This document shows, piece by piece, positions 62,130-64,000 of a stretch of 64,000 nt of DNA (positions within the stretch are counted from its first letter, which is position 1; every line of letters starts with the position of its first letter). A program made the position numbers and the translations under genes. The notes beneath the pieces are model-generated. The model was not told the origin of the DNA. It saw only the letters and a list, made by a program, of their open reading frames with translations, and did not search any database. Source of the stretch: Mycolicibacterium sp. (GTDB taxonomy: Bacteria; Actinomycetota; Actinomycetes; Mycobacteriales; Mycobacteriaceae); the NCBI GenBank assembly GCA_020637165.1, contig JACJWN010000009.1, positions 124,001-188,000 of the forward strand. The letters run 5' to 3'.

Positions 62130-62399
62130 ATGGCCAAAGCCGATATCATCGTGATCTGCGACTCGGGGAACAAGGAGCCGTACCTGAAGCACTCCCACCT
62201 GAGCAACAAAGTCGCCCTGCTGGCCGGCGCGGCCGCCATCGCCGGCCTGGCAACCATGACCGCCTGTGGTAGCGACACCAAGGAGTCCCCGACCGACACC
62301 AAGGTGCCCGGCGGCCCCGGAAACCACTACGAGATGCGCCCCCTGAAACCCCGTGCCACAGGGGGACCCTTGGCCGAGGCATCCTCGACCGGGCATTAA
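62130..62399 (+). CDS. Small predicted lipoprotein
   Basis: An 89-residue protein from the ATG that directly follows the dehydrogenase stop. A hydrophobic stretch (about 29-43) leads to the lipobox A-T-M-T-A-C46, then a short hydrophilic tail of 43 residues rich in P/G/T. A 28-residue lead before the hydrophobic core is long for a lipoprotein signal. A CTG at 62184 with a perfect AAGGAG six bases ahead would give a standard signal and 71 residues. If lipidated, the mature chain is about 44 residues. No family is recognised. Confidence 0.6.
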   Translation: MAKADIIVICDSGNKEPYLKHSHLSNKVALLAGAAAIAGLATMTACGSDTKESPTDTKVPGGPGNHYEMRPLKPRATGGPLAEASSTGH

Positions 62400-62420: not shown

Positions 62421-62453
62421 GGCCGGAAACTGAGACGAAAACCGCCTCCGAGG

Positions 62454-62502
62454 TGGCCAGGGCCGGGATCGAACCGGCGACCTTCCGCTTTTCAGGCGGA
62501 CG
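62454..62502 (-). tRNA. 3' fragment of tRNA-Phe(GAA): probable attachment site of an integrated element
   Basis: Read on the minus strand this is the tRNA-Phe sequence from the anticodon stem to the discriminator base. It holds the CCGC-CTGAAAA-GCGG anticodon arm with anticodon GAA, the T arm GCCGG-TTCGATC-CCGGC, and the 3' acceptor strand CCTGGCC followed by A. The 5' half is absent: no GGCCAGG acceptor partner and no D arm occur in the next 100 bases. A tRNA 3' part without its 5' part is the usual scar left at the distal end of an element that integrated into the tRNA gene and restored it at the other end. The fragment cannot make a functional tRNA. Confidence 0.8.
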
Positions 62503-62527
62503 GGATAGCCACTGACCTGCGGTTTAT

Positions 62528-62607
62528 CTGCTCGTATGCGTCGTATGCGCCGCATTGAGCAGGGCTGACGTACTCAGTTTGTCCGGCGAACGGACATAAA
62601 CCGGACA
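62528..62607. repeat. Cluster of short direct and inverted repeats between the attachment site and rep
   Basis: Tandem TCGTATGCG repeats (62532-62540 and 62541-62549) are enclosed by CTGCTC (62528-62533) and GAGCAG (62557-62562). Further on, TGTCCG (62580-62585) faces CGGACA (62591-62596) across five bases, and CGGACA occurs again at 62602-62607. Such clusters fit integrase/excisionase arm sites or the Rep-binding region of a rolling-circle origin. Which one cannot be decided from sequence. Confidence 0.5.
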
Positions 62608-62692
62608 CGGTGCATGCGCTCCTGACCAGGAGCTTCTTCGCTGCCGCCTGCGTTGTCGGCAGCCTCCGGGGCTCCGGGGAGCAGGCACCCCG

Positions 62693-64000
62693 ATGCCCAG
62701 CATCGCACCATCAGCCAACGCCCCGAGCTCGTCGACGAATGGTTCGACTTGCGCCTCAGACCAGCCGCCATTCAGGCACGGTTCTGCCGGTAAGTCAGTC
62801 GACGGGAGGTCGCGAGCGCCCGAGGCCGCCAGGCCGCAGGGCGGGAGAGCGACAGCGTTCGGCCGGACGTCGACCGACTTACCGGCATCAGACCGGCCAG
62901 GGGTTGGCGGGCTTGTTATATGTGCCGAAAATGTCCGCGACCCGGTTGCCGACGGGTTCGCGCCCGGGGAGCTGCGGGCGATCGACGCATTGGGGCTGCG
63001 GTTCCCGAGCCCCGAGTTGGTCGCCGCTTCTACGGCGTTGTTCGAGCGGGCGGCGCCGTGGGCTTCTGGCTCGGAGCGTCGTGGTATCGAACCGGAATCC
63101 GGGCGGTTCCGCATCATCATCGGCCCTGGTGTCGTGCGACTCGGGTGGACCAATCCCGTCCGGGCCGAGAAAGCCGCCGAACGGACAGTCGGTCATCACC
63201 AACGTGACGTTGACGACGCGAAATTTCATATCAGAAATGACCTCGAACTTTCTGCCGGGGACAGTGATCGGGCCGTCGTGTCTGTGACACGACGGAGTCC
63301 TACGGAAAACGAGCAGGGCGGTTCCGGCGGTGTCATCACCGAGTGGTCCCGCAAATCACGGTCGGCGATGTGCCGCACCTTCGCTGAGCTCGACTACAGC
63401 CCACTGATGGAATCTGGTCGCGTCCCTGCCATGGTCACGCTCACCTACCCTGGGGACTGGGAAGCCGTCGCACCCGACGGGGCGACCGTGAAGCGACACA
63501 TGGTTTTGTGGCGCAAACGCTTTCAACGCGAGTATGGCGAGACAGCACGCTACATCTGGAAGCTGGAGTTCCAGCGGCGCGGTGCCCCGCACATTCATCT
63601 ATGGATGGCGCCGCCGACCTCGCCAGGGCGATCAGGATGGGGCTTCGCTCAATGGCTCTCGGAGACCTGGGCACACATCGTCGACCACCCCGACGCCGAG
63701 CAGAAGGCGCGGCATCGGCTGGCTGGCACCGCCGTCGACGTTCGCAACGGACTGAAAGCCTGCGACCCCAAGCGGCTGGCCATCTATTTCACCAAGCACT
63801 CATCACCAAACCTTCGCGGCGACAAGGAATATCAGCACATCGTTCCCGAACTGTGGCGGCAGCCTGGCCGCGGGCCTGGCCGATTCTGGGGCGTGTACGG
63901 ACTCAAGAAGGCCATCGCCGTTGTGGAGGTGGCCCAGGACGCATACATCACTGCTCGCCGGATCGTGCGGCGATGGTCACGTAGCCAAGCGGTGTACGGC
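62693..64000 (+). CDS. Rolling-circle (HUH) replication initiator of an integrated element, C-terminus outside the window
   Basis: At least 436 codons, open at the right edge. The initiator motifs are present in order: motif I-like M-V-T-L-T-Y-P-G-D-W, motif II H300-I-H302 in G-A-P-H-I-H-L-W, and motif III Y365-x-x-K368 in A-I-Y-F-T-K-H, followed by E-Y-Q-H-I-V-P-E. This is the pattern of actinobacterial Rep proteins of the pSAM2/RepSA type, which nick DNA at the double-strand origin. Family-like sequence begins near N-V-R-D-P-V-A-D-G-F (about 62927). The listed ATG is the only standard in-frame start before it, so the first roughly 75 residues may not be translated. Reading is away from the tRNA fragment, placing xis/int, if present, beyond the window. 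Confidence 0.75.
   Translation, partial: MPSIAPSANAPSSSTNGSTCASDQPPFRHGSAGKSVDGRSRAPEAARPQGGRATAFGRTSTDLPASDRPGVGGLVICAENVRDPVADGFAPGELRAIDALGLRFPSPELVAASTALFERAAPWASGSERRGIEPESGRFRIIIGPGVVRLGWTNPVRAEKAAERTVGHHQRDVDDAKFHIRNDLELSAGDSDRAVVSVTRRSPTENEQGGSGGVITEWSRKSRSAMCRTFAELDYSPLMESGRVPAMVTLTYPGDWEAVAPDGATVKRHMVLWRKRFQREYGETARYIWKLEFQRRGAPHIHLWMAPPTSPGRSGWGFAQWLSETWAHIVDHPDAEQKARHRLAGTAVDVRNGLKACDPKRLAIYFTKHSSPNLRGDKEYQHIVPELWRQPGRGPGRFWGVYGLKKAIAVVEVAQDAYITARRIVRRWSRSQAVYG

Follow-up and report, generated by a model that had tools for sequence, protein, structure and literature searches.

A probable integrative and conjugative element of a mycobacterial tRNA-Phe family, with predicted defence cargo and a candidate origin at the start of rep

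The DNA stretch analysed here, called the window, comprises 64,000 nucleotides of a Mycolicibacterium sp. genome (G000; 3.85 Mb, 32 contigs), namely C32:124001-188000, where C32 denotes contig JACJWN010000009.1 (positions beyond the window are given as C32 coordinates; G and L numbers are our handles for genomes and loci). Its right end enters what we regard as an actinomycete integrative and conjugative element (AICE). The 3' fragment of a tRNA-Phe gene lies where an earlier reading of the bare letters, the sequence-only reading, had placed it, and it scores 33.4 bits with the Rfam tRNA model (gathering score 29); ARAGORN calls no tRNA within the window. An inward-reading open reading frame (ORF) for a rolling-circle-type Rep begins at 62693, 190 bp from the core of the left attachment site (attL), as had also been proposed, and its REP_ORF2-G2P domain reaches 43.8 bits (cut-off 27.8), so that the element has a replication initiator of its own, as AICEs do. 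The repeat cluster reported in the same reading comes down to one strong 20-nt inverted repeat, which lies within the rep ORF, and otherwise to two-copy families of 12-14 nt, which often arise by chance. The features are listed in Table 1.

Table 1. Features of the element that lie at the right end of the window (window numbering, unless marked C32)
Feature	Position	Strand	Basis
attL core, 3' half of the tRNA-Phe gene, 50 bp	62453..62502	minus	common to attR (C32:207261-207312, with two extra bases) and the empty site of G150
Element-side arm of attL, GG.ATAGCC.CTGACCTGCGGTTTAT	62503..62527	plus	conserved in the alignment of 43 left ends
Two conserved non-coding blocks, TGCGTC.TATGCGCCGC..TGAGC and GTCCG.CGA.CGGACATAAACCGGACACGGTGC	62534..62616	plus	43 aligned sequences
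rep, rolling-circle-type replication initiator, 504 aa	62693..64000, ends C32:188207 (64207 in window numbering)	plus	Pfam REP_ORF2-G2P and homologue alignment
Covarying hairpin in the 5' part of rep	62785..62887	plus	inverted repeat, folding, covariation
GGGCTTGTTATATGTGCC, proposed nick site	62909..62926	plus	cut CTTG/TTATA (slash) between 62915 and 62916, placed by likeness to pC194 and phiX174 sites

The other boundary of the element lies on the same contig. The core, proposed earlier as 49 bp (62454-62502), recurs with 96% identity at C32:207260-207312, about 20.8 kb away, and attL, the right site (attR) and the empty site (attB) of the relative G150 have 50 bp in common, from GTGGCC to GGACG, which corrects the length. 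The expected empty attB thus exists in nature: in G150 the same two flanks meet at an unbroken tRNA-Phe gene, the left one matching at 78% over 1.6 kb, a check that, like that of the operator below, rests on few named loci. At the second core copy, ARAGORN calls a tRNA-Phe(GAA) on the minus strand, the place and strand predicted for an intact gene at the far end, but this gene is not intact as read, with two extra bases in its core, because the right end lies in error-rich sequence. The element is therefore framed by direct repeats in a tRNA gene, as is typical of AICE integration. That attL is not a chance likeness follows from the second copy on the contig and from the presence of a tRNA-Phe core (at least 44 bp, at least 90% identity) before rep in 39 of the 49 loci with at least 330 bp upstream of rep, at a median distance of 191 bp. 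The remaining ten comprise L079 with a tRNA-Val-like core, L082 with a decayed core, and eight without a core in place, which are Rep fragments, a 5'-truncated rep, or Pseudonocardia loci. An assembly error, considered earlier as a possible source of the truncated tRNA, does not account for attL, which is found in many genomes and, here, in sequence of good quality; the right end is indeed error-rich.

Five complete sister elements (G035, 19.2 kb; G024, 16.2 kb; G016, 16.0 kb; G015, 13.0 kb; G026, 17.0 kb) share one plan with that of G000: attL, rep, variable cargo, (nudix) gntR, an FtsK/TraB-like tra, xis, a tyrosine int and attR. All six carry rep, gntR, tra, xis and int, four carry nudix, and five carry a 133-aa protein of unassigned function. 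Pfam supports the NUDIX, GntR+UTRA and integrase assignments (Phage_integrase, 73.4 bits in G016), with int beside attR in all six, in G000 as a frame-broken match at 42%. Related tra genes of the FtsK/SpoIIIE type known from AICEs are likewise found in all six, weakly in G000, and FtsK_SpoIIIE exceeds its Pfam cut-off in L080 (27.1) and L090 (27.5). The gntR, tra, xis, 133-aa protein and int of G000 match at just 25-46% identity, in weak and broken pieces, because their frames break. The xis and integrase genes expected beside the far-end tRNA were thus found by rightward extension, in the sisters and as broken matches in G000. Other expectations had to be given up: the element is not compact and free of transfer genes on the rep side, as it spans 20.8 kb with an FtsK/TraB-like tra and about 14 kb of cargo, and its order is not rep-xis-int, because rep lies at the opposite end, with the defence-type cargo, the regulator and tra in between.

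The broken frames might also mean that we see a decayed AICE remnant, in which the breaks in tra, int and tRNA-Phe are real, the element is immobile and only the cargo is kept. The ORFs of gntR, tra, xis and int are indeed broken as read, the attR core has its two extra bases, a synthase gene in the cargo is split (see below), and decay of AICEs and their cargo has been described in Streptomyces (PMC9513070). However, the damage does not end with the element. Relative to G035, gap openings amount to 0-2.8 per kb at C32:186.4-190.3k and to 22.7-41.1 at C32:202.4-215k, the other four sisters give 24-46 per kb on the right, and the high rate extends over host tRNA genes and DNA beyond C32:214 kb. 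Against this contrast of left and right, the more distant G016 and G026 give about 31 gap openings per kb also over the first 0.75 kb on the left, where spacer and rep start differ, and 0-7 further into rep. Long coding-like frames nearly vanish at C32:202-220k (partial patches at 208-211k and 214-217k) and are back by about 223 kb. An error-rich stretch of about 20 kb, C32:202800 to about 223000 (L004:16800 on, L005, L129), lies in an otherwise good contig and breaks the right half of the element, a tRNA-Phe/Asp/Glu/Lys group and host genes. The lowest four of the 44 genomic tRNA scores are three from this stretch and the attL fragment, and ARAGORN called no other tRNA-Phe at 30 of the 44 tRNA loci. 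As host genes and tRNAs are broken as much as the element, we read the breaks as poor sequence and consider true decay improbable. A dip in long frames at 33-39 kb of the window turned out to hold ordinary host-like ORFs.

Between rep and nudix, the G000 element carries about 14 kb of cargo: a helix-turn-helix (HTH) and PIN gene pair, a synthase of the cyclic-oligonucleotide-based antiphage signalling (CBASS) type with SMODS and AGS_C parts in two frames and a SLATT two-transmembrane effector, a type I restriction-modification system with a YgjP-like gene, a HEC-07-like gene, a TIR gene (PDC-S35) and a PDC-M14A-like gene. PADLOC, whose names we use as annotations of predicted defence, matched 8 of the 10 proteins scanned from this element, with no match for Rep and a 437-aa gene, and 18 of 30 chosen sister cargo proteins (E 1e-3), a few of them weakly; in a small host control, 2 of 10 window proteins matched, both generic ATPase-like. 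Each of the five sisters has a different predicted defence set: type III restriction in G035; type I restriction genes, placed by blastp with those of the G000 element, and a capP/RmrA-like gene in G024; type IIG parts and PDC-S19 in G016; PD-Lambda-3_B and PDC-M41/M30 genes in G015; and type IIG, a methyltransferase, PDC-S06 and PDC-S14 in G026. With defence-type cargo in all six elements, we read the region that separates rep from nudix/gntR as a slot for exchangeable phage-defence genes. The split CBASS-type synthase (C32:190924-192263; L004:4924-6263) has intact neighbours and is either a pseudogene or the product of one sequencing error. The 437-aa gene adjoins rep on the minus strand (C32:188239-189552; L004:2239-3552), occurs also in G035, and has no match in Pfam, NCBIfam, PADLOC or PHROGs.

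The arms of the inverted repeat in rep (62785-62804 and 62868-62887) are 95% complementary. In an alignment of 37 of the 43 left ends (omitting the duplicates L092, L099, L100 and L108, and L102 and L117, which do not align), 87.1% of cells pair, compared with 82.1 in shuffles, and 74 cells are changed on both sides, compared with 27.2. The covariation score is 0.191 versus 0.109 for shuffles and 0.035-0.060 for slid positions, the structure having been derived from one of the aligned sequences, which favours the real position over the slides. Pairs with change on both sides number 13 (9.6 in shuffles, 17 of 500 of which reach this value), and the 32 further pair types do not go beyond shuffles (92 of 500 reach them). 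As DNA, the region folds with a z score of -5.1 here; three other sequences, folded on the same strand, give -2.0 to -4.3. The reading frame through the hairpin is one in 17 of the 43 left ends and a different one in 20 (6 unclassified), so that it is the nucleic acid and not the peptide that is conserved.

The hairpin is followed by GGGCTTG/TTATATGTGCC, kept at silent positions, and 41 of the 43 left ends carry CGGGCTTGTTATATG without change. Among 38 of the 39 sequences with a near-full Rep (L090, with an in-frame stop, was omitted), codon identity is 0.968 at Rep residues 72-83 (8 columns) versus a mean of 0.546 over 295 columns. The motif recurs, in varying forms, in three of five related plasmid records and in all three Pseudonocardia loci read, and it is absent from the stretch read of pCAZ1 and of a Streptosporangium plasmid. 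Six relatives give mixed folding results upstream of it (z -5.3 to +1.1). A CTTG motif preceded by a hairpin, as would be expected of a pC194/phiX174-type double-strand origin, is present and conserved here, with mixed folding among the relatives; the position of the cut is a proposal based on likeness to the nick sites of pC194 and phiX174. Hairpin and motif at the start of rep are likely to be the double-strand origin, and the hairpin is probably its Rep-binding part. The hairpin alone could instead be a cis-acting RNA that controls rep translation. Such a role would suit a conserved, covarying structure in the 5' part of a transcribed gene, coding-strand G-T pairs (39, 36) exceed A-C pairs (18, 33) in two groups, which at most weakly favours RNA, and some relatives have no clear hairpin before the motif (z +1.1 in L112, -1.0 in L126). 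However, no Rfam family was found for the hairpin, and the CTTG motif after it, with rare codons kept at silent positions, is common to plasmids with different upstream DNA. We therefore regard the RNA as the less probable role, though one to be kept in mind.

In each of G000, G035, G024 and G016, a predicted 12-bp operator, CTAGACGACTAG or CTAGTCGYCTAG (at most one mismatch), is present in two copies, one ahead of gntR/nudix and one ahead of tra. It is not found in the first 62 kb of the window, and the whole genome has a single copy of the exact word (C32:203708), compared with four of the reversed control word. A GntR site before rep was dropped as a candidate, as no word of 8-12 bases is widely common with the nudix-gntR intergenic region.

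From what is directly supported, namely the boundaries, the empty site, gene set and order in the sisters, conservation, covariation and motif placement, we infer excision, nicking, transfer, repression and defence. The tyrosine integrase with Xis would excise what lies between the 50-bp cores as circular DNA of about 20.8 kb; Rep would bind the hairpin at the start of its own gene, nick CTTG/TTATA and start rolling-circle copying; the TraB/FtsK-like ATPase would move double-stranded DNA into a neighbouring cell; the GntR repressor would keep transfer off through its predicted sites; and integration would restore the host tRNA-Phe. An integrated AICE of a tRNA-Phe family of mycobacteria, with such a cycle and an exchangeable defence slot, is in our judgement very likely. 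We also lean, with more reserve, towards a mycobacteria-wide family that serves as a defence shuttle, with a fixed frame, one swap slot for whole phage-defence systems, and an origin (covarying hairpin and nick site) in the rep start whose nucleic acid is kept while the frame differs.

Several observations weigh against the AICE reading. No excised circle, joined site (attP) or transfer was seen, and no read-level search for the circle was made. FtsK_SpoIIIE stays below its cut-off (24) in G016 (21.5) and L117 (22.4), and HTH_17 of xis is just below it (26.3 vs 27). For the G000 int, one PHROG frame matched weakly (1.6e-5) and no Pfam model did. G015 and G026 have neither the predicted operator nor nudix. 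Finally, the CBASS synthase is split in otherwise good-looking sequence and the G026 int lies in two frames, so that decay may have affected some copies.

The alternative of a phage satellite or prophage-derived island, non-conjugative and packaged by a helper phage, would also account for an integrase at a tRNA gene together with defence cargo, as satellites can combine the two. However, none of 50,697 phage records contains a Rep match, the attL pattern is in no viral contig searched, and of 11 viral contigs with Rep relatives, ten match in short segments and one matches residues 38-503 at 51%. The backbone genes for FtsK, GntR and NUDIX are those of AICEs, and no capsid or packaging family, as would mark a satellite, was found among the scanned proteins, a subset of the ORFs. 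We therefore consider a satellite very improbable. Nine viral contigs of 56-103 kb (L148, L150-L157) carry the same 90-residue Rep fragment (193-282), perhaps an element remnant beside prophages.

In Rep, TLTYP, PHIHLW and YFTK were assigned by eye as HUH-endonuclease motifs. A search for solved relatives by sequence returned none for Tra and, for Rep, one spermidine synthase (E 0.78), taken as chance. Rep relatives occur in 8 of 36 other genomes of the genus, in none of 24 others of the order, and in 4 of 200 sampled genomes of the order, three of them of the genus, own included. The 57 Rep loci in named genomes belong mostly to Mycobacterium-group species, with some from Pseudonocardia and some from actinomycete bins.

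Further features lie close to attL. A regular expression for part of the conserved arm matches 36 of the 43 left ends, and the arm is possibly an integrase/Xis site. Of the two non-coding blocks, which are perhaps a rep promoter/operator or a transfer site, the second is able to fold as a short hairpin. A tRNA-like 5' half on the element side was dropped, as its likeness was no better than that of shuffles (p 0.295). The left core of L079 (the same locus as L057), a close Rep relative, resembles tRNA-Val(CAC), which suggests a change of integration target. Extra tRNA-core matches (L080, L085, L097, L102, L113) or pieces of nudix, gntR and int (L117) lie upstream of the left core, and we read these as remnants or tandem elements piled at one site. 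Just outside attL, an 89-aa ORF (window 62130-62399) includes DNA that is 84% identical to C8:40-134 of the same genome.

Few AICEs are said to have been reported from Mycobacteriaceae (PMC8190616), yet Rep was found in 43 of 297 sampled genomes of the genus, own included (threshold E 1e-50, five first-look candidates scored per genome, some matches being fragments). A conjugative family whose examined members all differ in their defence sets would go some way towards explaining why phage resistance is patchy among mycobacteria, a matter of relevance to phage therapy. A mapped rep and origin could yield a replicon for harmless mycobacteria, and the att site, nick site and operator predicted here are short sequences that lend themselves to testing.

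In the open-licence literature searched (including PMC10482375, PMC4170104 and PMC12169178), this tRNA-Phe family is not described. That literature does report one AICE-like contig from Mycolicibacterium (PMC8190616), restriction systems carried as cargo by Streptomyces AICEs (PMC9513070), and nuclease genes that occur together with AICE and defence genes (PMC11706625). As in the pSAM2-type AICEs of Streptomyces and Frankia (PMC3218068), the element is integrated at a tRNA and has a tyrosine integrase with Xis, a rolling-circle-type Rep, an FtsK/SpoIIIE-type Tra, a GntR regulator (KorSA-like) and a NUDIX gene (Pif-like), and pSAM2 has been placed in the pC194 family by its Rep motifs and nick site (PMC3218068). 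The assignment as a pSAM2-like AICE therefore holds for the AICE type and not for the subtype: rep adjoins the opposite att site, being found at the attL end of all six elements and not between tra and xis-int, no pra gene was recognised, and RepSA (PF20199) is not among the Pfam matches of this Rep at E 0.001, with plasmid relatives reaching just 15.0-16.5 bits (cut-off 34). In pSAM2, KorSA acts through pra, and no KorSA site was found before traSA (PMC8584621), whereas the predicted GntR site here lies directly before tra, so that the wiring would be more direct. The Mycobacterium AICEs of a 2011 survey have the same gene set, but with the exception of Mkan24688 they encode serine recombinases, in eight cases at a tRNA-Leu (PMC3218068), unlike the tyrosine integrase at tRNA-Phe found here; Mkan24688 (tyrosine) may belong to our family. 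The rolling-circle plasmids pTSC1 (Streptomyces) and pREC02 (Rhodococcus) have Reps that are 41.7% and 37.0% identical to ours, the CTTG motif and an annotated FtsK/SpoIIIE gene, and a pTSC1 derivative replicates in Streptomyces (PMC3212956), but both are free plasmids of 5.4-7.0 kb with no integrase or defence gene among their listed features. Exchangeable defence cargo on a fixed mobility frame is also known from defence islands on other mobile elements, such as Tn7-like ones (PMC8649781), which use other mobility machinery and other hosts.
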